A stretch of DNA of 64,000 nt, taken from Rheinheimera sp. A13L. GTDB lineage: Bacteria; Pseudomonadota; Gammaproteobacteria; Enterobacterales; Alteromonadaceae. The position numbers were made by a program, and so were the translations under genes. The stretch's first letter is position 1, and the number at the start of each line of letters is the position of its first letter. The DNA lies in the NCBI RefSeq assembly GCF_000217935.1, contig NZ_AFHI01000005.1, positions 1-64,000 on the forward strand, written 5' to 3'. Shown in pieces: positions 15,036 to 30,906 of the stretch. Below the pieces are notes generated by a model. The model saw nothing but the letters and a program-made list of their open reading frames with translations. It did no database searches and had not been told where the DNA came from.

Positions 15036-16535
15036 TTAATCCAGATCCGGCATATTCTGATAACACACAGGCCGTAAAAACCGCTGTAAGGAATTACCGC
15101 CTACAGCACTGACTCTGCTGTCTGTGGCTGCCGGGAAAGGGCCGCCATGCTGCATTGCTGCAGACACTTCAACCCCTGTTGGCATCATATTGGCGATAAG
15201 ACGGCCAGCCTTTAATTCCATTTGCCGGATCAGCGCCTTATGTTGTTTAAGCTCATCTGGCTCTGCAAAAAAGCTGCTGGTTAACTGACCAGCAAACAAG
15301 GTCGCCAACATTTGCATTTGAGTGACATCCTGACATAACACCAGGACTGTGGCCGGGCCAAAAATTTCTTCCATCAGCGAAGGCTGGCTTACGACCACCG
15401 AGCTGTCCGTTAAAAACACCCTGAGCCTGCGATCACAGCCCAGCTCCTCTCCAACTCCTTCAACCAACAGCTCAACCCCGGCCATTTGCCTGAACTGCTC
15501 TGCGGTTTTGCTGTAACCCGCTGCAATTTTGGCACTGAGTAAAGGCCCAGCCTGCTGGGTACTGACCAGATCTCTGAGCTTTTGTAAAAACCTCTGCAAT
15601 GCCGGACCCTGAGGTAACAAGACCAGACCGGGTTTAGTGCAAAGCTGGCCCTGACTCTGACTGACAGAGTGCACCAACATCTCAGCCAGCCGTTCTGGCT
15701 GGTGCTCCAGATACCCTGGCAATACAAACACAGGATTCAGCGAACCCAGTTCCGCATAAAAGGGCACGGGTTCAGCCCTTTGTTGCAACAGGTTGGCAAA
15801 ATGCAATCCCACTTGCTGAGAACCGGTAAAAGCTACAGCTTTAATTTTTGGGTCCAGCAGTAACTGCTCTGCACTTTGGTAATTTCGCGCCTGGATCAGG
15901 TTAAACACTCCGGCAGGCATAGCACAGTGATCCGCAGCCCTGGCAATAGCTTTGGCCACCAGTTCAGAGGTGGCGGGATGAGCACTATGGGCTTTCACTA
16001 TCACAGAACAACCTGCCGCCAAAGCCGCAGCACTGTCTCCTCCTGCCACTGAAAAAGCCAAGGGAAAATTACTGGCAGCAAACACCAGCACAGGTCCAAG
16101 CGGAACCTGTCTGAGTTGTAAACCAGCTTTAGCCACAGGCTGGCGTTCAGGCAAAGCAGCATCGTTGATCGGCGCTAACTTCACCATTTCGGCCGCCAGA
16201 AAACTCAGTTGAAAACAAGTTCTTTGCAGCTCAGCTTCCACCCTGCTTCTGCTCAGTGCTGTTTCAGCCATCACCACCGGGATCAATTCGTCCGCACAGG
16301 CTTTGAGCTCAGCCGCAATACGTTGTAAAAAATCAGCCCTCTGTTGTGCTGGCAATTGGCGATATTGCTCAAAGGCCATCTCGGCCGCACTGGTCACCTG
16401 GTGTAACTGCTCAGCACTGGCTTCGGCAAAAGAATAAGCTAAAGGGCTCGAACTGGCCGGGTCAAAGGACTGAATGCCCTCTTCCGCCTGACCACACCAG
16501 TGGCCGGCTATATACTGTTGTCCGCTAATCATCAT
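15036..16535 (-). CDS. Alpha-ketoglutarate semialdehyde (2,5-dioxovalerate) dehydrogenase
   Basis: A 499-aa aldehyde dehydrogenase. It is predicted to oxidise 2,5-dioxopentanoate to 2-oxoglutarate with NAD(P)+, the last step of hydroxyproline breakdown (LhpG or HypH in other bacteria). The catalytic Cys is near residue 299 (SQSQGQLCTKPG) and the general base Glu near 262 (ELGSLNP); both differ from GabD-type signatures and match the 2,5-dioxovalerate subfamily. Its ATG overlaps the stop of the epimerase gene in an ATGA junction, so it is the third gene of a deaminase-epimerase-dehydrogenase operon. Neighbours make the assignment strong. Confidence 0.9.
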   Translation of the reverse strand: MMISGQQYIAGHWCGQAEEGIQSFDPASSSPLAYSFAEASAEQLHQVTSAAEMAFEQYRQLPAQQRADFLQRIAAELKACADELIPVVMAETALSRSRVEAELQRTCFQLSFLAAEMVKLAPINDAALPERQPVAKAGLQLRQVPLGPVLVFAASNFPLAFSVAGGDSAAALAAGCSVIVKAHSAHPATSELVAKAIARAADHCAMPAGVFNLIQARNYQSAEQLLLDPKIKAVAFTGSQQVGLHFANLLQQRAEPVPFYAELGSLNPVFVLPGYLEHQPERLAEMLVHSVSQSQGQLCTKPGLVLLPQGPALQRFLQKLRDLVSTQQAGPLLSAKIAAGYSKTAEQFRQMAGVELLVEGVGEELGCDRRLRVFLTDSSVVVSQPSLMEEIFGPATVLVLCQDVTQMQMLATLFAGQLTSSFFAEPDELKQHKALIRQMELKAGRLIANMMPTGVEVSAAMQHGGPFPAATDSRVSAVGGNSLQRFLRPVCYQNMPDLD

Positions 16536-17533
16536 TTCACCTCAAAGCCATAGGCATAGGGATCTGTGTTATCCACCTGGATCTGATTAAAACCATAAAC
16601 TTTGGCCCAGCCTTCAATAGAAGGGATAATGGCAGGATGCCCTGCTACTTCGGTTTCTGCTTCAATACGGCCTATAAACTGACTGCCAATAATACTTTCA
16701 TGCACAAAGCTGTCCCCCAGCTTTAACAAACCTTTGCTGAACAGTTGAGCCATACGGGCACTGGTGCCTGTGCCACAAGGCGATCTGTCTATGGCATTTT
16801 CGCCGTAAAACACCGCATTAGCTGCATCAGAGCCCGGATTTCTGGCTTTGCCTGTCCATTGCACATGCCGTATGCCTCTGATACTGGGATCCAAAGGATG
16901 CACCACCTCAAAAGCTGCATTGACGGCCTGGCGCACCAAGGGGCTGTACCTTAAAACTTCAGCTGCACTCCAGTGTTCCAGGCCGGGGAAATTAGGCTGC
17001 GGCTCAATAATGACGTAAAAATTGCCCCCATAAGCCACATCAAAACGGATCTCTCCCAGTTCAGCTACATGCACACTGGCATCCTGAATGGCGAGATACG
17101 AAGGAACATTGCGGATTTTCACAGAGCTGACTTTACCGTCCTGCTGCTGGTAATGGATCTGCACCTGACCTGCAGGCACATCCAGCACCAGCTCTCCGGG
17201 CACTTTGGCCTGCAGCAAACCCTGCTCCAAAGCTGCGGTGACTGTTCCTATGGTGCCATGGCCACACATTGGTAAGCAGCCGCTGGTTTCAATAAACAAC
17301 ACCGAAGCGTCGGCATTGTCTGAGCAAGCCGGGTATAAAAAGGAGCCAGACATCATGGCATGACCTCTGGGCTCAAACATCAGAGCCTGACGGATCCAGT
17401 CAAAGCGTTCGATAAAATCCAGCCGCTTTTCACTCATAGTACGGCCCCGTAACTCAGGGTGACCACTGGTGACCAAGCGGACAGGGTTACCGCAGGTATG
17501 AGCGTCTATGCAAAAAAATGTTCCTTGTATCAT
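16532..17533 (-). CDS. 4-hydroxyproline 2-epimerase (proline racemase family)
   Basis: A 333-aa cytosolic enzyme predicted to convert trans-4-hydroxy-L-proline to cis-4-hydroxy-D-proline. Both catalytic cysteines of the family are present: Cys90 in LPMCGHGTIG and Cys253 in DRSPCGTGTSARM. Having both favours an epimerase over the trans-3-hydroxyproline dehydratases, which lack one of them. It sits between the deaminase gene (4 bp upstream) and the semialdehyde dehydrogenase (overlapping). In other bacteria it is called LhpA or HypRE. Confidence 0.93.
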   Translation of the reverse strand: MIQGTFFCIDAHTCGNPVRLVTSGHPELRGRTMSEKRLDFIERFDWIRQALMFEPRGHAMMSGSFLYPACSDNADASVLFIETSGCLPMCGHGTIGTVTAALEQGLLQAKVPGELVLDVPAGQVQIHYQQQDGKVSSVKIRNVPSYLAIQDASVHVAELGEIRFDVAYGGNFYVIIEPQPNFPGLEHWSAAEVLRYSPLVRQAVNAAFEVVHPLDPSIRGIRHVQWTGKARNPGSDAANAVFYGENAIDRSPCGTGTSARMAQLFSKGLLKLGDSFVHESIIGSQFIGRIEAETEVAGHPAIIPSIEGWAKVYGFNQIQVDNTDPYAYGFEVK

Positions 17534-17537
17534 CAGC

Positions 17538-18461
17538 TTACTCCGCTGCGGTCGTGGATAAAGCCTGCAGATCCGGTCTGTTGGTCAGCGCTGCAGCCAC
17601 CACTTGCTCTACATAACGCCGCTCTTCTCCCACTAGTGTTAAACGGGGTAAACGCACATTTTCATGACCCCGCCCTACTATCTGCTCCGCCAGCTTGATG
17701 CATTGCACCAGAGTAGGCACTGTATCCAGACGCAACAAAGGCATAAACCAGCGGTACAACTCCCTGGCTTCAGCCAGCCGGCCTTGCTGAGCTAAGCGAA
17801 ATAAGGCGACAGACTCACGGGGAAACACATTGGTTAAACCAGAGATCCAGCCTGTAGCACCAAGCAGCACAGACTCCAGCGCTATATCATCCACGCCACA
17901 GAAAATGACAAAACGCTGGCCAAACCTTTGATACAACTCACTGATACGGCGGGTGTCAGTGGTAGATTCTTTGATAGCCACAATATTCGGCTCTTCCGCC
18001 AATATCGCCATCATATCCAGATGAATATCCACGCCATAACTGACCGGATTGTTGTACACCATAATGGGCAATTTAGTGGCTCTGGCCACCAGTTGATAAT
18101 GCGTCAGCACTTCCCTGTCCGTGCCGCGGTATACCACTGCTGGCAACAACATAATGCCATCCACACCAATTTGTTCGGCGGCTTTGACATAATCAATGGC
18201 CTCGCCTGCACTATGTTCAGTACAGCCAGCAAGCACCGGAATACGGCCATTAACAGTGCGTACTGTATGCTGCAGAAATTCCCGCTTTTCTGCTGATGTT
18301 AAAGAGGCATTTTCTCCCACAGTACCCAGCACAATAATACCGTTGATCCCATCCTCAATCAGTTGCTCCAGCATCCTTCTGTTGGCCTGATAATTAATAG
18401 ATCCATCTTCATAAAACTGAGTCGAGATTGCCGGGTAAACCCCTTGCCATTTGTGGTGCAT
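17538..18461 (-). CDS. 1-pyrroline-4-hydroxy-2-carboxylate deaminase (DapA/NAL superfamily)
   Basis: A 307-aa TIM-barrel lyase. By context it converts 1-pyrroline-4-hydroxy-2-carboxylate to alpha-ketoglutarate semialdehyde plus ammonia (LhpC or HypD elsewhere). Family residues are visible: the Schiff-base Lys164 (IVAIKEST), Tyr136 (MVYNNPV) and the GTVGE loop at 46-50. A housekeeping DapA role is unlikely given the operon. The ATG at 18461 has an AGAGGA ribosome site; the frame extends upstream to 18548 but that part crosses the promoter and operator. It is the first gene of the minus-strand operon. Confidence 0.9.
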   Translation of the reverse strand: MHHKWQGVYPAISTQFYEDGSINYQANRRMLEQLIEDGINGIIVLGTVGENASLTSAEKREFLQHTVRTVNGRIPVLAGCTEHSAGEAIDYVKAAEQIGVDGIMLLPAVVYRGTDREVLTHYQLVARATKLPIMVYNNPVSYGVDIHLDMMAILAEEPNIVAIKESTTDTRRISELYQRFGQRFVIFCGVDDIALESVLLGATGWISGLTNVFPRESVALFRLAQQGRLAEARELYRWFMPLLRLDTVPTLVQCIKLAEQIVGRGHENVRLPRLTLVGEERRYVEQVVAAALTNRPDLQALSTTAAE

Positions 18462-18485
18462 ATTTTTTCCTCTTTGGTTGCGATC

Positions 18486-18520
18486 GACAAAAGAATATTG
18501 TATACAATCTACAATATCAA
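18486..18520. promoter_or_regulatory. Divergent hydroxyproline promoters with GntR-type operator
   Basis: A perfect 12-bp palindrome ATTGTATACAAT (18497-18508) sits between the divergent deaminase and oxidoreductase genes. A rightward promoter, TTGCGA (18478-18483) then 17 bp then TATACA (18501-18506), and a leftward one, TTGATA (complement of 18515-18520) then 17 bp then TATTCT (complement of 18492-18497), both have their -10 box inside or touching the palindrome. One bound repressor could thus silence both operons. The extended arm ATATTGTATA recurs at three other promoters of the locus. Confidence 0.7.
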
Positions 18521-18539
18521 GTATTTTTAGGATCCATTG

Positions 18540-19769
18540 ATGCAACAAGTCACGATCATAGGGGCAGGAGTTATAGGTTTAACCACAGCTGTGTTTTTAC
18601 AGCAGGCTGGTTTTCAGACCTTATTACTGGATCAGGCCGGGCCAGGTTCTGGCTGCTCCAGAGGCAATGCGGGGCATTTTGCTACTGAACAGGTATTTCC
18701 ATTGGCTCAGCCATCTTTGCTGAAGCAACTGCCAGCCATGTTATTAGACCCTGTTGGCCCGCTTAAACTCAGGGCCAATTATTTGCTGCAATCTTTACCC
18801 TGGTTTGGCCGCTTTCTCGCCAATATGAGCAAAGATAAACGCCTTGCCCATCAACAGGCATTAAGTCAGCTCAATCACCAAAGCATACGAAGCTGGCAAA
18901 CATTGCTGGAGCTGTGCCAGCTTTCCGATCAGATCCAGTACCAGGGCGCTTTACTGGTCACAGAGCAACACAACAGCAAAGAGCTGCAATCTTGTTACCA
19001 GAGTTTCCGTCAGGCAGGTATAGATGTCAGTTGGCGGGACAAAGCTGCTTTGCAGCAACTGGAACCTGAACTCAGCGGCTCCTTAACAGCAGCACTTGAT
19101 TTTACCGAAGTGGCGCACAGCCCGGATCCTTACCTGTTGTGCCAGCTGTTGTTTGATAAGTTTTGCCAGTTGGGAGGTCAATGGCAACAAAGCGCAGTGC
19201 AGCACATCAGTGTCAGACCACAAGGGATCCAGATCCAGACCGGACAACAACAGATTGTCAGTAAGCAACTGGTGATAGCGGCAGGCGCCCATTCAGGTCA
19301 TTTCACCAAACAGCTGGGCTGGATTGTGCCATTGACAGCAGAGCGGGGTTACCATTTGATGGTACAGCCCATAGCGTTGAAACGTCCGGTCAGCTCATTG
19401 GAACGCAAGTTTATTATGACCCCTATGCAACAGGGGCTGCGGCTGGCCGGAACTGTCGAATTTGCCGGGTTGAACTCGGATCCGGACTACCGCAGAGCCC
19501 TGATATTAAAACAGCATGCCGAAGCTCTGCTGAACCAGCCTTTACAAGCCAGTAACACAGCCCTGCCCTGGGCTGGCAACCGGCCTTCCTTACCCGACTC
19601 TTTACCTGTACTCGGCCCCTGCCCTGTGCATAAAGGGGTGTTTTATAACTTTGGTCATCAGCATCTGGGCTTAACTCAGGCCGCATTTTCGGCCGAGCTG
19701 CTGACCAGTCTGTTTCGTGCTTTACAACCTGCGATTTCACTGACGCCGTACCGGATCAACAGGTTCTAG
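18540..19769 (+). CDS. FAD-dependent D-amino acid dehydrogenase, probable D-hydroxyproline dehydrogenase
   Basis: A 409-aa DadA/DAO-family flavoprotein. The N-terminal dinucleotide-binding motif is IIGAGVIGLTTA (residues 6-17). Context predicts that it oxidises cis-4-hydroxy-D-proline to 1-pyrroline-4-hydroxy-2-carboxylate, passing electrons to the respiratory chain, and so links the epimerase to the deaminase encoded on the other strand. It is a single-chain enzyme, unlike the multi-subunit type of some pseudomonads. The ATG at 18540 has AGGA upstream. A terminator follows. Specificity is inferred from neighbours; DadA-like activity on D-Ala is the alternative. Confidence 0.87.
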   Translation: MQQVTIIGAGVIGLTTAVFLQQAGFQTLLLDQAGPGSGCSRGNAGHFATEQVFPLAQPSLLKQLPAMLLDPVGPLKLRANYLLQSLPWFGRFLANMSKDKRLAHQQALSQLNHQSIRSWQTLLELCQLSDQIQYQGALLVTEQHNSKELQSCYQSFRQAGIDVSWRDKAALQQLEPELSGSLTAALDFTEVAHSPDPYLLCQLLFDKFCQLGGQWQQSAVQHISVRPQGIQIQTGQQQIVSKQLVIAAGAHSGHFTKQLGWIVPLTAERGYHLMVQPIALKRPVSSLERKFIMTPMQQGLRLAGTVEFAGLNSDPDYRRALILKQHAEALLNQPLQASNTALPWAGNRPSLPDSLPVLGPCPVHKGVFYNFGHQHLGLTQAAFSAELLTSLFRALQPAISLTPYRINRF

Positions 19770-19775
19770 TTTTTT

Positions 19776-19805
19776 CAGCAGTTGCCTGACAGCTGCTGAA
19801 TTTTT
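19776..19805 (+). terminator. Intrinsic terminator after the D-hydroxyproline dehydrogenase gene
   Basis: CAGCAGTTG (19776-19784) pairs with CAGCTGCTG (19790-19798) with one G-U pair, followed by AATTTTT. A second perfect hairpin, TTTTTGCA-TCCG-TGCAAAAA (19801-19820), starts within the T run and overlaps the next promoter. Confidence 0.75.
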
Positions 19806-19837
19806 GCATCCGTGCAAAAACATAAAATATACAATAT
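19804..19837 (+). promoter_or_regulatory. Promoter and GntR-type half-operator before the collagen-locus TonB receptor
   Basis: A promoter can be read as TTGCAT (19804-19809), 18 bp, TATACA (19828-19833). TATACAATAT (19828-19837) is, on the other strand, the same ATATTGTATA arm seen at 18495, 26174 and 29810. The other arm is degenerate, so binding may be weaker here. Confidence 0.55.
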
Positions 19838-19859: not shown

Positions 19860-22823
19860 ATGAACACACTCAACAGGGGTAACTTATTTAAACTTTCATT
19901 GCTGGCCGCCTCATTGCTGCTGAGTCTGGGCACACTATCAGTGCAGGCTCAGGACAATACAACGGGCATGCTCAAAGGGGTTGTCAATCAAACCTCAGGG
20001 CAAACCAGTATCACCCTGACTCACAAAAGTCAGGGCTTCAGCCGCACAGTGCAAAGTAACGCACAAGGCGAATACATACTGCGAGCCTTACCTGTAGGTG
20101 AATATCAGCTCAAAGTTCAGCAAAATAACCAGACAGTGCTGGATAACTACAGTATTCAGATCAAACTGGGCCAAACCGTTATTTTTAACCCTGTGCTGGG
20201 AGGCGTAGAAAACATAGAACGTATTGCAGTTCAGGGCAGCATGATCCGGCAAATTGACACCTCAGACTCCACTGCAGGTTTAACCTTTGATCAGGTCACT
20301 TTGGACAAAATGCCCGTCAATACAGGCTTTGAAAACATAGCCTTGCTGACACCAGGTGTGGCCCGCAGCTCTGAGTTTGACGCCTCCAGCTTTGGTGGTG
20401 CCTCCTCAGCTGAGAATGGCTATTTCCTCAATGGTATGAATATCAGTGCACTGCGCACAGGTATAGGCTCTATCGATCTGCCATGGGAAGCTATAGCTCA
20501 GACACAGGTAAAAACAGGCGGCATTTCCGCTGAATACGATCGTTTTATCGGTGGTGTGGTCAATGCAATAGCCCGCTCTGGTGGCAATGATTTTGAATTT
20601 GGCGCTGAATTAAGATACGACCCTGCTGCATTGTTTTCTGCCCATGATTCGGTGTACAAAGACAATCGCAGCTTTGCTATTAATAATGAAGAGTACGAAG
20701 ACAGTTTTCGCGAAGCCAATATCTGGGCCAGCGGTCCATTAATCCAGGACAAATTGTTTTTTTATGCGCTGCTCAACCCACGCCGCTACCAGTCAGAATA
20801 CGCCAATTCTGCAGCCACTGTATTTACCAACCATAAAAAAGATGAAGATCGCTGGTTCCTGAATATGGACTGGTATATTACAGATGATCATGTGCTGACG
20901 GTCACAGCGCTCGACAACACTGTGGATAACAGTTATCAGAATTACAAATGGACCACTGCTGATGGTCGTGGTGAAGAGACAGGCCTGACCCAAAGCGGCT
21001 CAGGTGGCAAAATGTATTCGGCCCGTTATCAGGGCTTTGTCACAGATGAACTGTCCGTCTCCGCTACGCTAGGCCGGGTTGAAGATAATACCCACACCAA
21101 ACCCACCAATACCTTTCCCGGAATCTGGGATTATGTCAATCTGAATGGCCAGCGCTACGGCGACTGGACCACCAATAATCTGGTCAGCGAAGCCTATCGA
21201 CGCGATCAGTTCAGACTGGATCTGACCTATGCCCTGGATAACCATACCTTGCAGTTTGGCATTGATGCAGAACAGCTAGATGTGGATTATCTGGAATTCC
21301 AGAATGGTGTCGCAGATGCGCGCGGCTGGTGGGAATACCGTACTTACACCGCCATTCCACGGATTGACCTGCCAGCCGGTACTTATGTGCGGCAGCGCCA
21401 ACGTGATGTAGGAGGTAAAACCGAAGTTAATTCTTTGGCTTTTTATCTGCAGGACAGCTGGCAGATCAATGATTCACTGGTGCTCAATGCCGGGCTTCGT
21501 TACAGCAGCTTCGAAAATACAGCAAGTACAGGTGAAGCTTATCTGGATTTAAAGCAGCAAATAGCGCCACGCCTGCAGTTGATCTGGGATCCATCAGCCG
21601 ATGGTAACAGCAAAGTGTTCACCACTTTTGGCCGATACTACCAGCCTATTGCCGCCAATATGAATATCAAACAGGCCAGCGGGCAAAAAGATGTGCATTT
21701 TTATTATTTACCTGATCAGTTGAACCCGGATGGGACTTTGGTACTGAATGCGGATGGTTCGCCAAGCCACGGCGATTTAGTGGCAACCAATGTGGTCCAG
21801 AGTGGTGCAGTGGATGTGGATCGTATTGCCGCTGATGATCTGGGCCCTATGTACTCTGACGAATTCACCTTAGGTTATGAACAACAACTGGATGACAACC
21901 TCAAAGGTGGAGTACGTTTTGTTTACCGCGAGCTGAAACAATCGATTGAAGACTCAGATCTTGGGCCTGTTGTTGCTAAATGGCTGGAACAAAACAATAT
22001 AGAGAACAAGGCCAAAGAACATTACTTCTACACCCTGCTGAACCCGGGTAAAGATGTCACATTCTTTTATGATTTTGATTTAAATGGAACAAAAGAAAAA
22101 GTACAGCTGTCGGCAGAAGATTTACGTTTACCCAAACCTGAACGCAAATATCTGGCCTGGGAATTTAGCCTTGAGGGCAAGCCCACAGATCATCTGCAAC
22201 TCTGGGCATCTTATGTCTGGTCACACAGCTGGGGCATGACAGAAGGTTTGGTGCGCACTGACAATGGTCAGGCCGATCCGGGCTGGACCACCTCCTATGA
22301 CTATGCCGATTTGATGGACCATGGCAGAGGCAATTTACCTAACGATCATCGTCATGCGCTGAAACTCAGTGGTATTTACCAGTTGGCTGAGCAGTGGGAT
22401 CTGGGTTTTGTTGCCAGAGCTACATCAGGCTCGCCTCTGAATAAATTCAGCATTCACCCTTCAGGAGTGGACACCTGTAAAGAACCCAGTTTATGGGCAC
22501 AGTGGTGTGCCAGCCAATGGTATAACGAAGCCTCTTTCTACGACTGGGATGGTACACCAGCCCCACGAGGCTCAGCTGGCAGCCTGAAGTGGTTGTACGA
22601 GTTTGATCTGTCTTTGACTTATCACACTCAAGTGGCAGATGGCGATCTGACGTTAAAAACCACTGTCTATAACCTGTTCAACTTCGACACCCCTGTGAAT
22701 GTCAACGAAGTGGCACAAATCACCAGAACCGATGGCAGCTTTGCCGCTAACCCGGACTGGAATAGCCCAACGGCTCTGCAAAGCAACCGTCTTGTGTCTT
22801 TTGTGGTGCGTTACCAATTCTGA
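19860..22823 (+). CDS. Oar-like TonB-dependent outer-membrane receptor of the collagen locus
   Basis: A 987-aa receptor with a signal peptide (cleavage near VQAQ, residue 30), a carboxypeptidase-regulatory-like beta-sandwich domain (about 35-115), a plug (about 130-260) and a C-terminal 22-strand barrel ending in Phe (VVRYQF). Oar-type receptors are typical of protein- and peptide-degrading gammaproteobacteria. Position, with collagenase and peptide-transporter genes downstream and a shared operator arm upstream, suggests import of collagen peptides; the energy comes from TonB-ExbBD encoded elsewhere. The ATG at 19860 has an AGAGGA site; an earlier in-frame ATG at 19812 lies in the promoter. 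Confidence 0.88.
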   Translation: MNTLNRGNLFKLSLLAASLLLSLGTLSVQAQDNTTGMLKGVVNQTSGQTSITLTHKSQGFSRTVQSNAQGEYILRALPVGEYQLKVQQNNQTVLDNYSIQIKLGQTVIFNPVLGGVENIERIAVQGSMIRQIDTSDSTAGLTFDQVTLDKMPVNTGFENIALLTPGVARSSEFDASSFGGASSAENGYFLNGMNISALRTGIGSIDLPWEAIAQTQVKTGGISAEYDRFIGGVVNAIARSGGNDFEFGAELRYDPAALFSAHDSVYKDNRSFAINNEEYEDSFREANIWASGPLIQDKLFFYALLNPRRYQSEYANSAATVFTNHKKDEDRWFLNMDWYITDDHVLTVTALDNTVDNSYQNYKWTTADGRGEETGLTQSGSGGKMYSARYQGFVTDELSVSATLGRVEDNTHTKPTNTFPGIWDYVNLNGQRYGDWTTNNLVSEAYRRDQFRLDLTYALDNHTLQFGIDAEQLDVDYLEFQNGVADARGWWEYRTYTAIPRIDLPAGTYVRQRQRDVGGKTEVNSLAFYLQDSWQINDSLVLNAGLRYSSFENTASTGEAYLDLKQQIAPRLQLIWDPSADGNSKVFTTFGRYYQPIAANMNIKQASGQKDVHFYYLPDQLNPDGTLVLNADGSPSHGDLVATNVVQSGAVDVDRIAADDLGPMYSDEFTLGYEQQLDDNLKGGVRFVYRELKQSIEDSDLGPVVAKWLEQNNIENKAKEHYFYTLLNPGKDVTFFYDFDLNGTKEKVQLSAEDLRLPKPERKYLAWEFSLEGKPTDHLQLWASYVWSHSWGMTEGLVRTDNGQADPGWTTSYDYADLMDHGRGNLPNDHRHALKLSGIYQLAEQWDLGFVARATSGSPLNKFSIHPSGVDTCKEPSLWAQWCASQWYNEASFYDWDGTPAPRGSAGSLKWLYEFDLSLTYHTQVADGDLTLKTTVYNLFNFDTPVNVNEVAQITRTDGSFAANPDWNSPTALQSNRLVSFVVRYQF

Positions 22824-22831: not shown

Positions 22832-22859
22832 AGGCCTTTGCTGTGGCAAAGGCCTTTTT
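22832..22859 (+). terminator. Terminator or attenuator hairpin directly before the collagenase start
   Basis: A perfect 10-bp stem, AGGCCTTTGC (22832-22841) with GCAAAGGCCT (22846-22855), loop TGTG, then T through 22859. The collagenase ATG follows at 22861. The only ribosome-site candidate (AAAGG, 22848-22852) lies in the 3' arm. There is no room for a separate promoter after it, so collagenase and transporter expression should depend on read-through or on opening of the hairpin. Confidence 0.75.
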
Positions 22860-22860: not shown

Positions 22861-24567
22861 ATGATGAATCCAAAAATGAAATTTCACACTTTTGTTTTCT
22901 TTCTGCTGTGCTGCTGGTCAGCCTGGCCACACTTAGTTCAGGCTAAAAACCATTCAGCGTTTTATCCTGCGCTGCAGCAATTGCAACACAGTCTGCAGCA
23001 AAACCCTCTGTCTGAAACCGGGGTGACTCCGGCTTTACAGCAGCTAAGGCATTTGTCTTACCAGCATGCAGTGACAGAGATGCCTGCGGCTGAACTAAAA
23101 TTGCTGCACCAACTGCTGCAACAACTCAGTCAACAGCCAGAATTCAGTCAAAGCAAGCTGCCTGGCTGGCGCTTGCAGGAACACTATGCAGTGTTGCTGT
23201 ACCGTTTTTACCCTGACACTGAACTCAAGCCGCTTTGGCCTGAACAGCTAAAACCTCTGCTGCCGCTCTTGCAGCAGGAGCTGATCTTATCTGACGAACT
23301 GCAGCAGCATTACAGCTGGTGGGAACAGATCCGTAGCCTGGCATTTGGCCTCTATTATGGCCGTTCTGATCCGGACTTAACTCAGGCTTTGTTGCAACTA
23401 AAGCCCGCCAGCTTCTTGCTGCAATTAACTCCGCTAAGCCAGGGCTGGCAATTACAGCATCTGCTGTGGACTCTGGCCTATCTGCACCCTCTGATGGATG
23501 AGGCAGAACAAAAGCAGTTGGATCAGCAGGTTCTGGCTTTATTGCAACAACACAAAGACGTAAGTCCGACAGAGCGGAAACAACTTTTTAGCCAGCTCTA
23601 TCTGGTGAACTCTTTCAGGGTCAGAGACAACTGCGAACAGGAGTTTGCCGGCCAGTGCCTTTATCCGGACCTGACACAAGCTTTGCCGCTGAACTACCAC
23701 TGCTCTGAACGTTTGAAAATCCGGGCTAAAAGCATCACAGAATCTCAGCTCAAACAAAGCTGTGAACAACTGCAAGGGCTGGAACATAAGTTTCATTCAT
23801 TGCTCGATACCCAACAACAGCCTGTAGCCAATGATCTGAATCAGCAACTGGAAGTGGTAATTTTTGACCATTACAGCGACTACAACCTCTATGGATCCCT
23901 GCTGTTTAATATTCATACCAACAATGGCGGTATGTATATTGAAGGTACACCTTCGGATCCGGACAATCAGGCGCGCTTTTTTAGCTTTCAGCATTTCTGG
24001 CAGCAGGACTTTGCGGTCTGGAACCTGGAACATGAATATATCCATTATCTGGATGGCCGTTTTGTCAGTTATGGCCCTTTTGAGCATTTCCCGACACAAA
24101 TGGTCTGGTGGAGCGAAGGCCTGGCGGAACTGATTGCCAAAGGCCAGCACAATGACAAAGCCAGAGAACTGCTGGCAAAAACCAAAGCAGAAGAGCGCCC
24201 TTCGTTAGAACAAATTTTTGCAACCCGCTATACAGATGGTCTGGATCTGACCTACCGCTGGTCTTATTGGGCCTGGCTGTTTCTTCAGCAACAGCAGCCA
24301 CAACAGCTCAGACTGTTAAAACAACATTTGAGTCAGGACTTTTTTGCCGGTTACCAACAGCTGTTACAGCAACTGGCCTCCAGCTCAGAACTGCAGTTTC
24401 AGCAGTTTTTACAACAGCAGGTCTCCCAACCCAAAGCGGAAACTACAGCAGCCCTTTACCTCGGAAAATACCTGTATCGCAGTTATTTGCAGCCCGCTCA
24501 TTTACCGGTCAGCGCTGAACATTTTCATCGGCTGAAGCAGGATGAACCACAAAAGGATCCCCTATGA
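22861..24567 (+). CDS. Secreted M9-family collagenase, short form
   Basis: A 568-aa zinc metalloprotease with a signal peptide (KFHTFVFFLLCCWSAWPHLVQA). The zinc motif HEYIH is at residues 391-395 in HEYIHYLDGRF, and the third ligand Glu419 lies in WWSEGLAE, 24 residues on, as in Vibrio-type microbial collagenases. It has the N-terminal activator-like helical part and peptidase domain, but no C-terminal PPC or PKD domains, so it may act on soluble or pre-cut collagen, possibly in the periplasm. Start choice between 22861, 22864 and 22876 is open; 22861 has the best-spaced AAAGG. It overlaps the transporter gene by 4 bp (ATGA). Confidence 0.88.
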   Translation: MMNPKMKFHTFVFFLLCCWSAWPHLVQAKNHSAFYPALQQLQHSLQQNPLSETGVTPALQQLRHLSYQHAVTEMPAAELKLLHQLLQQLSQQPEFSQSKLPGWRLQEHYAVLLYRFYPDTELKPLWPEQLKPLLPLLQQELILSDELQQHYSWWEQIRSLAFGLYYGRSDPDLTQALLQLKPASFLLQLTPLSQGWQLQHLLWTLAYLHPLMDEAEQKQLDQQVLALLQQHKDVSPTERKQLFSQLYLVNSFRVRDNCEQEFAGQCLYPDLTQALPLNYHCSERLKIRAKSITESQLKQSCEQLQGLEHKFHSLLDTQQQPVANDLNQQLEVVIFDHYSDYNLYGSLLFNIHTNNGGMYIEGTPSDPDNQARFFSFQHFWQQDFAVWNLEHEYIHYLDGRFVSYGPFEHFPTQMVWWSEGLAELIAKGQHNDKARELLAKTKAEERPSLEQIFATRYTDGLDLTYRWSYWAWLFLQQQQPQQLRLLKQHLSQDFFAGYQQLLQQLASSSELQFQQFLQQQVSQPKAETTAALYLGKYLYRSYLQPAHLPVSAEHFHRLKQDEPQKDPL

Positions 24568-25979
24568 ATTCCAGTTCAACACCACAGTACCTGGGCCATC
24601 CCAGAGGCTTATTTTTATTGTTTGGTACAGAAATGTGGGAACGTTTCTCTTATTACGCCATGCGGGCTTTGCTGGTGCTGTATTTAACAGATCAGGTCAG
24701 CAGCCATGGCGGGGGACTGGGCTGGGATACAGCCCGAGCCTTGCAACTTTATGGCAGCTTTACCATGTGTGTGTATTTAACTCCGGTGCTCGGTGGTTAT
24801 CTGGCGGATCGTTACCTCGGGCAACGGCTGGCTGTGCTGGCAGGCTCTCTGTTGATGGCTTCTGGTCAGTTTATGCTGGCTGTACCTCCGCAGTGGTTCA
24901 GTCAGCCCGACCTGTTGTTTTATCTGGGATTAACGGCACTGGTGGCAGGCAATGGCTTATTTAAGCCCAATATTTCCACTATGGTTGGCGATCTGTACCA
25001 CAACAAGGACCCACGCAGAGACAGTGCTTACACCATTTTTTATCTGGGCATTAATTCAGGCATGTTTCTGGCAGGTATAGCTGTAGGTTTAACCATTGAG
25101 CAGTTTGCTTATCAGGTGGAAGGACAGGAATATCGCAATTATCAGGCTGGTTTTTTGCTGGCAGGCATAGGCATGCTGCTGGCTTTTGTCTTACATTTTT
25201 TACTGGCGCCGGGCTGGTTAGGTGACATTGGGCTCAAACGAAACCTGCAGATTTCAGCCTCGCCTGTTTTGCCACTGACGGCTGAAGAACAAAGCAGATT
25301 AAAATCTTTATTGCTGCTGGGGTTGTTTACCGTCATTTTTTGGGCTGGTTTTGAACAGGCCGGAGGCTTAATGACCATTTATGCCGACCGTTTTGTCGAC
25401 AGAGAACTCTGGGGAATGGAACTGAACCCCACTTATTTTCAATCGCTGAACCCATTCTTTATTCTGGTTTTTGCGCCAATACTAGCAGGCATTTGGTTAA
25501 AAGCCGGTGATCGTGGCCCCAGTGCCCAGCAAAAATTTGTGTTGGGTTTACTCTTTCTCAGTGCTGGTTTTGTTTGCCTGGTGCTGGCAGGTTTGCAGTA
25601 TCAAAGCGTCGGCAAAGCCAGTTTATGGTGGCTGGTGCTGGCTTATTTATGCCACACCCTGGGCGAGCTCTGTATTTCTCCTGTGGGTTTATCTATGGTC
25701 AGCCGGCTGGCACCACTGCGGATGGCCTCACTGGTGATGGGGATCTGGTATCTGTTTATTGCCATGGCCAATAAAGTGGCAGGCTGGTGTGGTGCTCTGA
25801 TCGGCACCCAACAGAATTCGGCCGAACAGATGCAACAAAATGCCATGGCCATCTTTGCAGGTTTTGCCATTACAGCTGCAGTTTCAGCTCTGCTGTTATG
25901 GCTGCTGTCCGGCCGCCTGCTGCTTTGGATCCAACAAGGAGAACTGAATTGTCAGGCAAAAGCTGAACCCGGCACCTGA
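24564..25979 (+). CDS. POT/PTR-family proton-dependent di/tripeptide transporter
   Basis: A 471-aa inner-membrane protein with twelve or more hydrophobic helices. The proton-coupling motif ExxERF is visible near residue 23 (TEMWERFSYYAMR), and the second PTR signature region is near residues 135-170 (GLFKPNISTMVGDLY and DSAYTIFYLGIN). It should bring di- and tripeptides such as Gly-Pro or Pro-Hyp into the cytosol. Its ATG overlaps the collagenase stop, so the two are made together, after the upstream hairpin. The imported dipeptides would feed the Xaa-Pro peptidase encoded at 29836. Confidence 0.92.
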   Translation: MNSSSTPQYLGHPRGLFLLFGTEMWERFSYYAMRALLVLYLTDQVSSHGGGLGWDTARALQLYGSFTMCVYLTPVLGGYLADRYLGQRLAVLAGSLLMASGQFMLAVPPQWFSQPDLLFYLGLTALVAGNGLFKPNISTMVGDLYHNKDPRRDSAYTIFYLGINSGMFLAGIAVGLTIEQFAYQVEGQEYRNYQAGFLLAGIGMLLAFVLHFLLAPGWLGDIGLKRNLQISASPVLPLTAEEQSRLKSLLLLGLFTVIFWAGFEQAGGLMTIYADRFVDRELWGMELNPTYFQSLNPFFILVFAPILAGIWLKAGDRGPSAQQKFVLGLLFLSAGFVCLVLAGLQYQSVGKASLWWLVLAYLCHTLGELCISPVGLSMVSRLAPLRMASLVMGIWYLFIAMANKVAGWCGALIGTQQNSAEQMQQNAMAIFAGFAITAAVSALLLWLLSGRLLLWIQQGELNCQAKAEPGT

Positions 25980-26173: not shown

Positions 26174-26187
26174 ATATTGTATACAGA
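26174..26187 (+). promoter_or_regulatory. GntR-type operator before the long collagenase gene
   Basis: ATATTGTATACAGA carries the full left arm and the core TGTATACA of the 18497 palindrome (10 of 12 positions). It lies in a 278-bp gap (25980-26257) that also holds a stem CGGAGCTG/CAGCTCCG (25992-26019) without a following T run, a possible weak terminator of the transporter transcript. I could not fix a -35/-10 pair with confidence. Confidence 0.6.
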
Positions 26188-26257: not shown

Positions 26258-28990
26258 ATGAAAAAATCCAGTCTATTGCTGAGCCTGCTCGTGGGTTCAA
26301 CCGCTGTGTGGGCGCTAAGCCCATTCAGTGCCGCAGCACATCAGCACCACCAGTCCAGTCCGGAGCGACAGAGCTCTGAGCTGGATCATGGTATTCCTGA
26401 ACTTCAGGCGCCTTTGCCTCCCCGCAAGGTGTCGCCTTATCAGTTTGAACAACAGCAACAAAACCTGAAAAAAATACCAAGCGTCAGTGCCAAAGTTCAG
26501 GTACAAAAAAACGCACTGCAAAGCAGCGGTTGCACCAACCCGGCTCAATTGCTGCCATTGCAGGACCAAGCCCTGATCCAGGCGATAGAGAGTGCCAATC
26601 TGACCGGCTGTTTGTATGGCTTATACAACGCCGATTTTCTCAATAGCGACTATTTTACTGACAGCAAACTGCTGACTATTGTACAAGCCATCCACAACAG
26701 GATGGCGCAGTTTGATGGCTCTGATGCGACCGGAGCCGCCGAACTGGAAAAGCTGGTGACTTACCTGCGTGCCGCTCATTGGGTGGAGTCAGGTTCAGGC
26801 CGCGAGTTTCAAAGTAACTACCTGCAACAACTACAGCACGTCTTTGATCAGTATTTTGCCGCTGAGCATTTCGTTCGATTTGATGGCGCTGTGTCACGCA
26901 ACTTTATGCTGCGCTACGAGATGCTGGTACTGGTCAATAGTTCAGGTACCAACAATCTCAAATACCTGCGCCGTTTCAGTCAGGCGATTAAGGGTTATGC
27001 CAGTACGGTCAATCGGCAGAATAACTGGGGCGTCGGCTATGAAGAAAATGGCATGACCCAGTTGCTGACCCATTATTTTAATGCCAGCAACAGCAATGCA
27101 ACTGCATTACAACAGCTGATCACTACACAACCGGATATCATCACCAATCTGCGTGATTTTGTTTTAAGTGACGGGCTCTGGCTGGTTGGCCATACCCGTG
27201 AATACCAATGGGCCGACGCAGTGACAGAACTGGGCCGTTTTTTAAAATTCGGTGGTGCTGTTGCCGACTCAGTTCGCCCGGCCATGCAAAGTATTTTATC
27301 CAGCTATAGCTTTGGGGGCACAGGCTCCAAAGGCTGGGTAAACGCCCAGCGTATGGTCAGCCTTTATGATCAGGCGAACTGTGCTTCCTATGGTGAGGCT
27401 TGTGCCTTTGATTTGGAAGCCACAGTATTATCCGGACAACATATTTGCAGTGATTCTTTAGAAGTACGTTTTCAGCCCCCTGTCAGCACTGGTAATTTGC
27501 AACAAATCTGTCAGCAATTACATGGTCAGGAGCAGCAATTTCACCTTGAATTTGGCACCAATGCCAACAGCCCTGTCAGCAATGATCAAAATTCTGCGCT
27601 GGAGATTGTGATTTTTAACTCCTCTGCTGAATATCAGAATTATGCCGGCAGTTTTTTTGGTATAGATACCAACAACGGCGGCATGTACCTTGAAGGCACA
27701 CCTTCAGATCCGGCAAATCAGGCGCGTTTTATTGCTTATCAGGCCACCAGGTTGCAACCTGAGTTTGTCGTCTGGAATTTAAACCACGAATATATCCATT
27801 ATCTGGATGGCCGCTTTAACCAGTGGGGCAGTTTTAGCGATCAACCTGCTAATTTAGTCTGGTGGGGCGAAGGACTGGCGGAATATCTGTCGATAGGCGA
27901 TGACAATCCAAAAGTCGTCGATATCATTGCCAATAAAACCTACAGCTTAAGTCAGTTATTCCAGACCACCTATGCCAATAGTAATACCGAACGTACTTAT
28001 TATTGGGGTTATCTGGCCACTCGTTTTATGTTTGAACGCCACAGAGATTTAATCGACAACCAGTTGCTGCCAAGCATGCGCGCTGCCAAATATTATATTT
28101 CAGACCTGCCATGCAGCTTTGACTGGGGCTGGCGCAGCAAATCTGAAGCCATAGCCAACCAGTGGAGCTGGTTGTATGACGACAGCGCCAACTCCGAAGG
28201 AAATTGGGTCTGGACCTGCGGTCAAATGCAAGATCCTAATGTACCAGAGCTGCCACCTTATACGCCGTACAGCGCTATTCTGGCCGCATGGGGCAGCAAC
28301 TTTGATCAGGAATTTGATCAATGGCTGGACTGCCTGCTGACGTCTGAAGACTGCAGCCAGACAGAACCTGCCATACCGCTCTTGCTGAATGGCCAGTCTG
28401 TGGCGATTTCAGGCCTCAAGGACAGTGAACAGCACCTCAAGATTGAATTGCCTGCCAATGCCTATGATTTGAGTATCGTCAGCTCAGGTGGCAGCGGTGA
28501 TTTGGACTTGTATGTGCGCAATCAGCAGCAAGCCAGCCTCAGCGAATGGGATTATCGCCCTTACGCCATTGGCAACAGAGAAAAAGTGGAAGTATTGCAG
28601 CCAACAGGCGACTACTTTGTCATGGTGCATGGGTATAGGGACTTTAACGCAGCCAGTCTGACAGCCAGCTGGAAAGAAGGAAGCTTGTCACAGTTACAGC
28701 AATGGCCAGGCCTGAGCAGCACTTCTGCTGTGTATCAGTGGCTCTGGGTTCCTGCTCATGCCAAAGCTTTATATTTTACCCTTAGCGGCGGTACTGGTGA
28801 TGCACAGTTGTATGTGAAACGTGTTGGCTGGCCAGCGCCAAATAACTATGATGCGGCTTCCAGTATCAGCAGAGGCACCAGCCAGAAAATAACAATGAGT
28901 TCTGTTGTGCCAGGCAGCTATTACCACATTATGGTGAATACTCTGCAAGGTTTTAACAATGTAGAACTGAAAGTACTGATGGTGGAATAA
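26258..28990 (+). CDS. Secreted M9-family collagenase with two C-terminal PPC domains
   Basis: A 910-aa secreted zinc protease. A signal peptide (to about residue 28) and propeptide-like region are followed by an activator domain (about 90-400) and peptidase domain with HEYIH at 510-514 and the third zinc ligand Glu538 in WWGEGLAEYL. Two prepeptidase C-terminal (PPC) beta-sandwich domains follow (about 710-795 and 820-905, each with a GSGDLDLYV- or GTGDAQLYV-like motif), which bind substrate or aid secretion. It resembles Vibrio and Grimontia collagenases in size and order. It has its own promoter region with the shared operator, so it should be co-regulated with hydroxyproline use. It is convergent with the regulator gene. 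Confidence 0.92.
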   Translation: MKKSSLLLSLLVGSTAVWALSPFSAAAHQHHQSSPERQSSELDHGIPELQAPLPPRKVSPYQFEQQQQNLKKIPSVSAKVQVQKNALQSSGCTNPAQLLPLQDQALIQAIESANLTGCLYGLYNADFLNSDYFTDSKLLTIVQAIHNRMAQFDGSDATGAAELEKLVTYLRAAHWVESGSGREFQSNYLQQLQHVFDQYFAAEHFVRFDGAVSRNFMLRYEMLVLVNSSGTNNLKYLRRFSQAIKGYASTVNRQNNWGVGYEENGMTQLLTHYFNASNSNATALQQLITTQPDIITNLRDFVLSDGLWLVGHTREYQWADAVTELGRFLKFGGAVADSVRPAMQSILSSYSFGGTGSKGWVNAQRMVSLYDQANCASYGEACAFDLEATVLSGQHICSDSLEVRFQPPVSTGNLQQICQQLHGQEQQFHLEFGTNANSPVSNDQNSALEIVIFNSSAEYQNYAGSFFGIDTNNGGMYLEGTPSDPANQARFIAYQATRLQPEFVVWNLNHEYIHYLDGRFNQWGSFSDQPANLVWWGEGLAEYLSIGDDNPKVVDIIANKTYSLSQLFQTTYANSNTERTYYWGYLATRFMFERHRDLIDNQLLPSMRAAKYYISDLPCSFDWGWRSKSEAIANQWSWLYDDSANSEGNWVWTCGQMQDPNVPELPPYTPYSAILAAWGSNFDQEFDQWLDCLLTSEDCSQTEPAIPLLLNGQSVAISGLKDSEQHLKIELPANAYDLSIVSSGGSGDLDLYVRNQQQASLSEWDYRPYAIGNREKVEVLQPTGDYFVMVHGYRDFNAASLTASWKEGSLSQLQQWPGLSSTSAVYQWLWVPAHAKALYFTLSGGTGDAQLYVKRVGWPAPNNYDAASSISRGTSQKITMSSVVPGSYYHIMVNTLQGFNNVELKVLMVE

Positions 28991-29008
28991 GGTCGAAAAT
29001 ATAAAACT

Positions 29009-29032
29009 GCAGGGCCGGGCTTAGGGCCCTGC
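29009..29032. terminator. Hairpin between convergent collagenase and gntR genes
   Basis: GCAGGGCC (29009-29016) pairs with GGCCCTGC (29025-29032). The A run just before it becomes a T run on the minus strand, so it best serves as terminator of the gntR-type gene. Confidence 0.7.
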
Positions 29033-29042
29033 GTTCACTGAG

Positions 29043-29714
29043 TTATTGAGCTGCGTCGGCATCCAGCTTTTGCACCAGCAGGTTAATTTCATGAGCAGCG
29101 CCGAGAATATGCTGCTTTAGCACCACACAAGCTTGCTCCACCTTGCGCTGACGGCACAAGTCCAGCAACTGTACATGCTCAGGCCCGGCTTTGGTAACTC
29201 CACCAGCCAACATCAGGTGTACCCTGATATACCGGTCTGAATTACTGTTCAGGTTTTGCACCATTTCAAAGGTCAAAGGCCGGTTGGCCGCTCTGTATAA
29301 ACTCAGATGAAAACGGCTGTTCAGTTCACTCCAGGTTCCTGAGGTGGCAGATTGCTGATAAGCGTCATTCATCTGCTGCAAAATAAGTTCGGTTTGATCC
29401 AGTTCAGCATCTGTCAGTTTAGGGATCGCCAGCCGTAATAACTCGGTCTCCAATAAAGCTCTTAACTCAAACAGCTCTGTCACCTGTTCTGCGGATAATT
29501 TTGTGGCTGTGGCGCCTTTATGAGCTTCAAACTCAACTAATCCTTCAGCTTCAAGTTGCAACAAAGCTTCACGTATAGGAATCCGGCTTACTTTCAGCTC
29601 GTCTGCCAAAGCAGCCTGACGTAAAGGTTCACCTGCTTTAATTTCCCCTTTCAGGATTTTTTCCCTGATAGCTTCCACCACAACCTGAGTTCGGGTTTTG
29701 TATTCAATGACCAT
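29043..29714 (-). CDS. GntR-family (FCD subfamily) regulator of the collagen/hydroxyproline locus
   Basis: A 223-aa regulator. The N-terminal winged helix (about residues 5-70, with LADELKVSRIPIREALLQLEAEGLVE) is followed by an all-helical FCD ligand-binding domain with the typical ELFELRALLETELLRLA and metal-binding His residues (RFHLSLY and a C-terminal HILGAAHE). FCD regulators usually bind small acids and act as repressors on TTGTATACAA-like palindromes, matching the sites at 18497, 26174 and 29810. The start at 29714 is chosen because the longer frame to 29756 runs through the control region. The inducer is probably a hydroxyproline intermediate, which is inference. Confidence 0.88.
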   Translation of the reverse strand: MVIEYKTRTQVVVEAIREKILKGEIKAGEPLRQAALADELKVSRIPIREALLQLEAEGLVEFEAHKGATATKLSAEQVTELFELRALLETELLRLAIPKLTDAELDQTELILQQMNDAYQQSATSGTWSELNSRFHLSLYRAANRPLTFEMVQNLNSNSDRYIRVHLMLAGGVTKAGPEHVQLLDLCRQRKVEQACVVLKQHILGAAHEINLLVQKLDADAAQ

Positions 29715-29737
29715 GTCGTTGTTCTTGTTTACTGTAC

Positions 29738-29749
29738 ATAGTATGCAGT
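29738..29749 (-). promoter_or_regulatory. Degenerate operator upstream of the gntR gene
   Basis: Read on the minus strand the site is ACTGCATACTAT, 9 of 12 matches to ATTGTATACAAT. It lies 24 bp before the regulator start and may give weak autoregulation. On its own this match would not be convincing. Confidence 0.35.
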
Positions 29750-29787
29750 ATATCAAATGCCGATCCTCTGTCGACCATAGACTTTAG

Positions 29788-29823
29788 TTGCAGCCCCACA
29801 GCAAGCAGGATATTGTATACAAA
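29788..29823 (+). promoter_or_regulatory. Promoter and GntR-type operator of the Xaa-Pro peptidase gene
   Basis: TTGCAG (29788-29793), 17 bp, TATTGT (29811-29816) reads as a promoter. The operator ATATTGTATACAAA (29810-29823; core 11 of 12 matches to the 18497 palindrome) covers the -10 box. The ribosome site AGAGG follows within a few bases, so the leader would be very short. Confidence 0.65.
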
Positions 29824-29835
29824 AAGAGGTGTTCC

Positions 29836-30906
29836 ATGCGTTTAGAACTATTTCGCCAGCAAATGAAAAATCAACAGGCCGATGCTGTGTTGGTGACTGA
29901 ACCACTGAATGTGCGCTATTTATCTGGTTTTACCGGATCTGCCGGACAATTATTAATTACCGCAGAGCAGGCGATCCTGATCACCGACTATCGTTATATT
30001 GAACAAGCTCAAACTCAGGCCACAGCTTTTCAGTGTTACTGCCGTGACCGTGCCCGCCAGAGTTTGGGTCAGGCCATCAGAGCGCTGCTGATAAGCCAAC
30101 CCGCTCAGCTCCAACTGGATTACGATCAGGTACCAGTTGCTTTGTATCAGCAGTTGCAACAGGAGTTGCCTTGTACTCTGGCCGATTCCAGGCAAATCAC
30201 TGAGCAACTCAGGGCCATCAAAGATCCACAAGAGCTGGCGGCTATCCGTCAGGCTGCAGCCATTGCCGATCAAGCCCTGAGCTGGTTATTGCCTCAGCTT
30301 AAACCCGGAGTGTCTGAGCAACAGGCCGCGCACTGGCTTGAACAACAACTACTGGCTTTAGGTGCAGAAGCTCTGGCCTTTCCCACTATATTGCTGTCAG
30401 GACCACGCACTGCCCTGCCCCATGGCAAACCTTCAGAGCGGCGGTTTCAGCAGGGAGACTGGATCCTGATCGACTTTGGCGCTCAGGTTCAGGGTTATAA
30501 ATCAGACATGACCCGCAGCTATGTGCTGGGCAAAGCCAGCCCACAACAACAAGACTTTTATCAGACGGTAGAGCGGGCGCAACAAGCCGCTTTAGCTGCT
30601 GCCAAAGCCGGGATCCGGGCAGATCAACTGACAGAGGTAGCGCAGAAAATCTTAGCCGACTCCGCTTTTTCTGCTTATGCAGGCGAAGGCTTAGGCCACA
30701 GTATTGGGCTGGCGCTGCATGAACAGCCTCTGATGCGTTTTGGCTGCCAGCAAATACTGCAACCAGGAATGGTGGTGACTATTGAACCAGGTTTGTATTG
30801 GCCAGGCTTTGGTGGGGTGCGACTGGAAGACGATATACTCATTACCGCTGAAGGGGCTGAACTGCTTAGTCATAGCCCCAAACCTATGGAGTTGCCATTA
30901 GAGTAA
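29836..30906 (+). CDS. Xaa-Pro (M24B) peptidase
   Basis: A 356-aa cytosolic metallopeptidase that cleaves X-Pro or X-Hyp bonds in short peptides. An N-terminal creatinase-like domain (about 1-120) precedes the pita-bread catalytic domain with all five metal ligands: Asp residues in DFGAQVQGYKSDMTR, His in GHSIGLALHE, and Glu in TIEPGLYWPG and GVRLEDDILIT. It releases free proline and hydroxyproline from imported collagen peptides, which fits its operator and place in the locus. ATG 29836 is preceded by AGAGG; the longer frame from 29788 runs through the operator. Aminopeptidase P or prolidase activity cannot be separated from sequence alone. Confidence 0.9.
   Translation: MRLELFRQQMKNQQADAVLVTEPLNVRYLSGFTGSAGQLLITAEQAILITDYRYIEQAQTQATAFQCYCRDRARQSLGQAIRALLISQPAQLQLDYDQVPVALYQQLQQELPCTLADSRQITEQLRAIKDPQELAAIRQAAAIADQALSWLLPQLKPGVSEQQAAHWLEQQLLALGAEALAFPTILLSGPRTALPHGKPSERRFQQGDWILIDFGAQVQGYKSDMTRSYVLGKASPQQQDFYQTVERAQQAALAAAKAGIRADQLTEVAQKILADSAFSAYAGEGLGHSIGLALHEQPLMRFGCQQILQPGMVVTIEPGLYWPGFGGVRLEDDILITAEGAELLSHSPKPMELPLE

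Follow-up and report, generated by a model that had tools for sequence, protein, structure and literature searches.

The 64,000-nucleotide window analysed here (Rheinheimera sp. A13L, contig NZ_AFHI01000005.1, positions 1 to 64,000; C67 in our numbering of the 71 contigs of this 4.52-Mb genome) contains, at positions 15036-30906, a compact group of genes that we consider very likely to be a collagen (or gelatin) utilisation unit under a HypR-type GntR/FCD regulator. The gene order is as follows: hypH-hypE-hypD on the reverse strand; hypO, a TonB-dependent receptor, M9 collagenase a (M9a), a POT-family symporter, and M9 collagenase b (M9b) on the forward strand; the GntR/FCD gene on the reverse strand; and an M24 peptidase gene on the forward strand, with 4-base overlaps at hypH/hypE and M9a/POT. 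Every gene that an earlier interpretation of the letters alone (the sequence-only reading) had listed for this stretch is present as an open reading frame (ORF), as confirmed from the ORF translations by Pfam and NCBIfam profile searches; the true starts, as we read them from the sequence, are internal to several of the listed ORFs. When the whole genome is searched with profiles, its sole Pro_racemase-family match is the hypE-like gene of this locus and its only two M9 matches are the two collagenases, so the gathering of these genes exceeds chance.

Joint regulation of the locus, which the sequence-only reading had proposed, is supported by an operator-like palindrome that is common to the promoters of the locus and recurs at homologous promoters in relatives. 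Pattern searches place the (unstranded) site ATTGTATACAAT in the divergent hypD/hypO promoter (18497..18508), ATTGTATACAGA 5' of collagenase b (26176..26187), and ATTGTATACAAA in the gap that separates hypR from the M24 gene (29812..29823), so that the hypD/hypO, M9b, and hypR/M24 promoters share one candidate operator. Across the genome, ATTGTATACA yields four strand matches at three places (18497, 26176, and 29812), all of them promoters of the locus; the reversed-pattern control has a single match in the whole genome. The related palindrome TTGTATACAAT is typical of FCD regulators, and with one mismatch allowed it has 6 strand matches in the window, against a mean of 1.24 in 100 shuffles, none of which reached 6. 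A GntR/FCD gene stands alongside the hyp genes, as expected of a HypR regulon (hypR-like, 29043..29714, reverse strand; PF00392 61 bits, PF07729 84 bits), and no NCBIfam model exceeds its cut-off on the encoded protein. Taken together, the sites indicate that the locus is very probably co-regulated at three promoters or more. We infer that the GntR protein is the binder of the palindrome: HypR would occupy ATTGTATACAAT and repress the promoters, and hydroxyproline or its product would lift the repression. WTTGTATACAAW has its third exact site in the genome at C71:188818, ahead of an ORF for a BenE-type transporter.

The genes and their named catalytic motifs are directly observed, and from them we infer the substrates and the order of the steps. 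Collagenase b, built of two domains like known collagenases, would open and cut collagen outside the cell, and collagenase a, in which no activator domain is recognisable, would trim the resulting fragments. The Oar-like TonB receptor (19860..22823, forward strand; PF25183 93.7 bits, PF00593 41.5, PF13620 CarboxypepD_reg 33.3) would then carry peptides over the outer membrane, and the POT-family di/tripeptide:H+ symporter (24564..25979, forward strand; PF00854, and TIGR00924 at 303 bits for a cut-off of 130.2) over the inner membrane. Inside the cell, the YpdF/PepQ-like M24 Xaa-Pro peptidase (29836..30906, forward strand; PF00557 218 bits, PF01321 92 bits) would release residues adjoining proline or hydroxyproline, and HypE, HypO, HypD, and HypH would convert trans-4-hydroxy-L-proline to 2-oxoglutarate. 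The assertion that the locus encodes every step stands only for the route from hydroxyproline to 2-oxoglutarate.

The presence of two M9 collagenases, each with HEYIH and a downstream Glu, was borne out: collagenase a (22861..24567, forward strand, 568 residues) matches PF01752 at 253 bits, and collagenase b (26258..28990, forward strand, 910 residues, comprising M9_N, M9, and two PPC stretches) matches it at 296 bits, together with PF08453 at 52.9 and PF04151 at 74.5 bits. Both proteins contain the HEYIH motif and the Glu of a downstream GLAE, as M9 family members do; this Glu is presumably a metal ligand of M9 collagenases. In an alignment of seven collagenase a relatives, the HEXXH motif and the downstream Glu are invariant. 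For collagenase b, the combination of activator and peptidase domains follows from the PF08453 match and from the alignment of residues 106-604 with the solved collagenase 7wss, which covers both collagenase domains. Collagenase a has no Pfam M9_N match and no activator-type domain recognised by sequence, and a profile built from its seven relatives matches solved collagenases over the peptidase part only. It is this difference between the two proteins that suggests the division of labour proposed above. The collagenases also bear on the nature of the substrate, since the locus might instead serve some other hydroxyproline- or proline-rich protein, such as an algal or plant cell-wall glycoprotein, in place of animal collagen. 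Two metagenome-assembled genomes (MAGs) that carry the block are labelled 'planktonic', and the authors of an Arsukibacterium ikkense exoproteome study list, in the part of the text available, collagen but also wall proteins of algae and plants among the conceivable substrates of its M9 enzyme (PMC4767292). Nevertheless, the alignment of collagenase b with solved collagenases over both domains and the presence of two M9 genes in one locus lead us to regard a non-collagen substrate as unlikely, if still worth bearing in mind.

Within the catabolic branch, the identity of the first enzyme decides which amino acid the pathway serves. The hypE-like gene (16532..17533, reverse strand) was thought to encode a 4-hydroxyproline 2-epimerase with both catalytic Cys residues, and this agrees with our findings: the Cys pair lies in MCGH and DRSPCG, and the protein reaches 573.5 bits against NF010578, whose cut-off is 376, as opposed to 296 bits with the proline racemase model NF010576 (cut-off 556). 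The signatures described by Goytia 2007 for epimerases (in the available text of PMC1964878) are Val or Ser and not Phe at R1, His and not Cys or Leu at R2, and 'XLA' after DRSPCGXGXXAXXA at R3. In alignment with the Trypanosoma cruzi proline racemase, R1 of hypE is Ser62 (Phe102 in the racemase) and R2 is His223 (Cys270 in the racemase), both as in epimerases; at R3, QLF follows the motif in place of 'XLA'. One could therefore suppose that the protein is a proline racemase and that the pathway serves proline, with hydroxyproline incidental. In addition to the R3 difference, the solved chains nearest to hypE carry the name proline racemase (7pb3, 255 bits), and PA1268 (2azp), a tested hydroxyproline epimerase according to the available parts of the Goytia and Zhao papers, scores only 164 bits. 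Yet the residues at R1 and R2, the contrast between the two family models, and the DapA-like and aldehyde dehydrogenase neighbours, which fit the hydroxyproline route as laid out in the accessible text of PMC4113996, make a racemase improbable. The same Goytia study reports two-Cys family proteins with neither activity (PMC1964878, available part). Because such proteins exist and R3 departs from the signature, the epimerase step is likely but not proven, and we file hypE as a member of NF010578 rather than as a proven epimerase.

A second Pro_racemase-family gene was seen in relatives (for example L042:301-1314, L038:16687-17655, and L064:1416-2384), often beside M24 or POT genes; its product is 33-34% identical to hypE in L042 and L038, and it may encode a 3-hydroxyproline dehydratase or a proline racemase, or correspond to what Leyn 2016 calls 'hypY'.

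The remaining catabolic genes are assigned at the level of protein families. The hypO-like gene (18540..19769, forward strand; PF01266 189 bits) encodes a flavin adenine dinucleotide-dependent D-amino-acid dehydrogenase, predicted to act on cis-4-hydroxy-D-proline. The hypD-like gene (17538..18461, reverse strand; PF00701 210-211 bits) encodes a DapA-family protein, predicted to be the deaminase. The genome has one other DHDPS-family gene in our profile search, on contig C62; its product and the hypD protein are 29% identical, Tyr136 and Lys164 are retained, and the GRTG of the C62 protein is VSYG in hypD. We take Tyr136/Lys164 and GRTG to mark catalysis and substrate binding in DapA. That the hypD protein is the sole DapA of the cell was considered and rejected, as the C62 gene scores higher in Pfam (328 versus 211 bits). 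In one relative, the hypD homologue (L066:1037-1929) reads as three pieces that overlap and differ in frame, as if the gene were disrupted or the assembly faulty. The hypH-like gene (15036..16535, reverse strand; PF00171 180 bits) encodes an aldehyde dehydrogenase whose nearest solved chains, 3v4c and 1eyy, are both named 'aldehyde dehydrogenase'; it is predicted to be the 2-oxoglutarate semialdehyde (2,5-dioxovalerate) dehydrogenase.

At the scale of whole genomes, M9 carriers tend to have hypE as well, and the suggested search for the epimerase within 20 kb of an M9 gene reveals co-location above expectation in both samples examined. Among 394 genomes of the order, M9 is present in 79, hypE over its cut-off in 41, and both in 31 (odds ratio 19.7), with the two genes within 20 kb in 8 of the 31 where 0.6 would be expected. 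The 246 genomes of the family include 63 with M9, 63 with hypE, and 51 with both (odds ratio 60.6), and here the genes lie within 20 kb in at least 14 of 51, against about 1.0 expected. These statistics ignore the relatedness of the genomes, and the order count drops rows below the cut-off, including G039 and G014 (epimerase-like) and G134 and G234 (racemase paralogue), which lie within 20 kb of M9.

The gene order of the block itself recurs in Rheinheimera maricola (L048), R. baltica (L056), A. ikkense (L049/L058), and two MAGs (L047 and L050), and is found, whole or with slots changed, in six further genomes (G339, G526, G419, G448, G473, and G506). The slots vary in several ways. L016, L056, and L059 have nothing in the M9a slot and carry, between POT and M9b, a DPP-IV-like S9 gene with the palindrome, or something close to it, near its start (L016:11782-14091, L056:7525-9765, and L059:11710-13941; PF00930 and PF00326 for L016 and L056). 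Arsukibacterium has a different kind of TonB receptor in the receptor slot, and in G419 and G448 hypE has three M9 genes in its vicinity. Elsewhere in the window's genus, hypE and M9 are far apart or on separate contigs (G052, G330, G582, G535, and G498), and G474, G551, G567, and G595 show neither gene at the thresholds used.

To follow the palindrome beyond this genome, we scored sites from 500 bases upstream to 120 bases inside each ORF start, covering the window and the 61 loci fetched from other genomes. A site is present near the start of hypD in 28 of 29 cases and of hypO in 25 of 30 (the two share one promoter), of the DPP-IV-like S9 gene in 5/5, of the racemase paralogue in 8/10, and of M9b-type genes in 18/27, one of the 27 (L031:13520-15523) being a PPC protein without M9. 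Far lower are the counts for hypE (4/34), hypH (0/35), SSADH-like genes (0/4), and other, unrelated ORFs (14/486). The count excludes ORFs too near the ends of their loci, as well as L047 and L049, which duplicate L057 and L058; several loci come from one genome; and L041-L046 entered the set on the strength of containing the motif, a choice that raises the rate for other ORFs and, through L042, adds one racemase paralogue. Where the hyp genes lie apart from the collagenases, the palindrome nevertheless precedes M9 in seven loci (L025, L027, L028, L030, L031, L032, and L034); it is missing before M9 in L026 and L033, and the L029 stretch ends too soon. In 12 genomes of the family with hypE, the median number of palindrome strand matches is 13 (the window's own genome, with 4, included), compared with 6 in 20 genomes without. 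Five loci of families f21 and f14 (L012-L014, L017, and L018) have M9 and hyp-like genes together within 20 kb, and the palindrome is absent from them, which suggests another operator or a separate origin. Two genomes of the window's genus also carry a conserved palindrome, CTGATTGTATACAATTCT, ahead of a lipoprotein-like gene of the DUF885 family (L041:5765 and L043:7728), the DUF885 assignment being confirmed by profile for L041.

A number of results count against the locus as a single, jointly controlled collagen unit. Several enzymes fall short of their specific family models, and the assignments of HypO, HypH, and M24 draw on family and context: hypO scores 173 bits with NF001933 (cut-off 383), the M24 protein scores 239 bits with NF007310 (cut-off 393), and hypH stays under the cut-off of each of the 25 NCBIfam families listed out of 41, so the name 2,5-dioxovalerate dehydrogenase is given by context. 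For this enzyme, then, the class named by the sequence-only reading holds (PF00171), and its specific substrate is supplied by the neighbourhood. The hypD protein, for its part, passes the dapA model TIGR00674 (212.3 bits, cut-off 206.15). On the regulatory side, no exact copy of the palindrome belongs to the TonB-M9a-POT run, which shows just a degenerate stretch near 19826. In the set of relatives described above, a site occurs near the start of M9a-type genes in 5/19, TonB receptors in 2/11, POT in 1/15, M24 in 6/30, and GntR in 6/33; the low counts for M9a, POT, and TonB genes may reflect their frequent position inside gene runs. Two terminator- or attenuator-like hairpins (pattern matches only) lie in the hypO-TonB-M9a-POT stretch, one in the hypO/TonB receptor gap (19774..19800, forward strand; an 11-pair stem followed by a T run) and one in the TonB receptor/M9a gap (22832..22855, forward strand; a 10-pair stem followed by a T run); possibly these are attenuators that would lower collagenase output. 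Terminator-like hairpins number 37 versus 20.1 in shuffles, and promoter-like hexamers in the locus are no commoner than in shuffles (17 versus 17.8). One-mismatch sites in this genome are near background among the matches listed (51 versus 38), and we accordingly rejected the idea of a wider regulon built on them. In addition, the palindrome occurs somewhere in all 48 relatives searched, so it is not confined to collagen users.

The exoproteome of A. ikkense provides a view of the block's products. As given in the available text (PMC4767292), it includes a secreted M9 collagenase (peg.99, 104.40 kDa), a dipeptidyl peptidase IV (peg.96, 85.80), and a proline dipeptidase (peg.107, 43.84). The masses computed for the block proteins are 103.9 (M9b), 85.7 (S9), and 43.5 kDa (M24), and counting genes from the S9 gene in L058 makes M9b the fourth and the far M24 the twelfth, in agreement with the peg numbering; on the basis of numbering and masses, these three proteins would be products of the A. 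ikkense block. The M9 was found at 5 °C only, and the dipeptidyl peptidase IV and dipeptidase at 15 °C only (PMC4767292, available part), a further point against the unit. The exoproteome supports secretion of the block's collagenase, not joint expression. That peptidase, transporter, and catabolic genes are adjacent merely by chance or descent, without joint control, could draw on this result, on the several transcription units and the hairpins within the TonB-POT run, and on the location of collagenases elsewhere in some relatives, but we reject it as very improbable given the locus-specific palindrome and its recurrence at homologous promoters, including those before collagenases where the genes are dispersed (hypD 28/29 versus 14/486 for other ORFs).

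The collagen unit so described is a further instance of a published type of system, and the published idea covers related bacteria. The sequence-only reading had regarded it as special that one regulated unit should combine hydroxyproline catabolism with outer-membrane uptake and secreted collagenases; on this point it was anticipated (PMC5343134, PMC7883544, and PMC6608401, each available in part). Leyn 2016 predicted a HypR regulon in Alteromonadales which, like our locus, has a GntR-family HypR, hypE/O/D/H, secreted collagenases (colA1-3), a TonB-dependent receptor, the proline (di)peptidases PrdP, AmpP, and YpdF, and a proline di/tripeptide permease, PdtP; the accessible part of the text does not state a single physical locus and does not contain the word 'Rheinheimera' (PMC5343134). 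Borchert 2021 predicted a collagen cluster of about 21 kb in the Colwellia MAG BB5, found partly in C. piezophila and C. psychrerythraea (PMC7883544, available part). That cluster shares with ours M9, a TonB receptor, YpdF, 4-hydroxyproline epimerase, D-hydroxyproline dehydrogenase, deaminase, and semialdehyde dehydrogenase, but has one M9, peptidyl-prolyl isomerases, an MFS transporter, PutR, and stringent starvation genes, whereas two M9 genes, POT, and GntR/FCD are present in our locus and none of the genes annotated here encodes an isomerase. In Streptomyces coelicolor, experiments reported in 2019 show that HypR, likewise of the GntR/FCD type, binds and represses the hydroxyproline operon and the M9 collagenase gene SCO5912; there the genes are dispersed, the operator consensus differs (CTNTGC(A/C)ATGTCAC), and an outer-membrane receptor is not among the targets named in the part available (PMC6608401). 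A 2011 Shewanella study had already listed HypR for hydroxyproline use (PMC3223726, available part). Our literature search, outside whose reach most subscription journals lay, found no description of the block in Rheinheimera-like bacteria, of its operator, or of its spread. Bacterial loci proposed to take extracellular collagen to central metabolism are few, and the block in R. baltica, R. maricola, and A. ikkense offers compact, culturable test cases with a simple operator, in which one can test directly whether HypR controls collagenases in Gammaproteobacteria, as published work predicts.

These genomes also allow the path from dispersed regulon to cluster to be traced. A tree of 28 rows (HypE, HypD, HypO, and GntR, with GntR missing in 3; groups given by genus codes; L012-L014, L017, L018, L024, L039, and L065-L067 omitted) groups the 12 block carriers with G052, set apart from the rest by a fully supported branch, and splits the window's genus. 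A constraint that keeps the window's genus together carries a penalty of 259 log units (approximately unbiased test, p 4e-34), and the same constraint on genus g122 one of 458 (p 4e-104), both tests having been chosen after a first inspection of the tree. The split of the window's genus in the hyp-protein tree suggests that the block was transferred as a unit; ancient duplication followed by loss is a possible alternative. We tentatively entertain the broader notion, perhaps rather less probable than its opposite, that the locus does for collagen what polysaccharide utilisation loci do for glycans: a regulon whose genes are dispersed around the chromosome in some relatives would have been gathered into a single block, complete with regulator and operators, that moves between genera as a unit while slots are swapped inside it. 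Such swaps are seen in the DPP-IV-like gene in place of collagenase a, the other TonB receptor of Arsukibacterium, and the third M9 in two genomes of one genus.

An aldehyde dehydrogenase gene at 30987-32525 (TIGR01780 646.7 bits, cut-off 646.35) adjoins the M24 gene and was rejected as a member of the unit: it adjoins the block in L047/L057, no match lies 3' of M24 in L048, L049, L050, or L056, and the stretches of the other carriers end too near to be compared. On the left flank, positions 13234-14938 hold a YCII-domain ORF followed by an ORF resembling an extracytoplasmic function (ECF) sigma factor.

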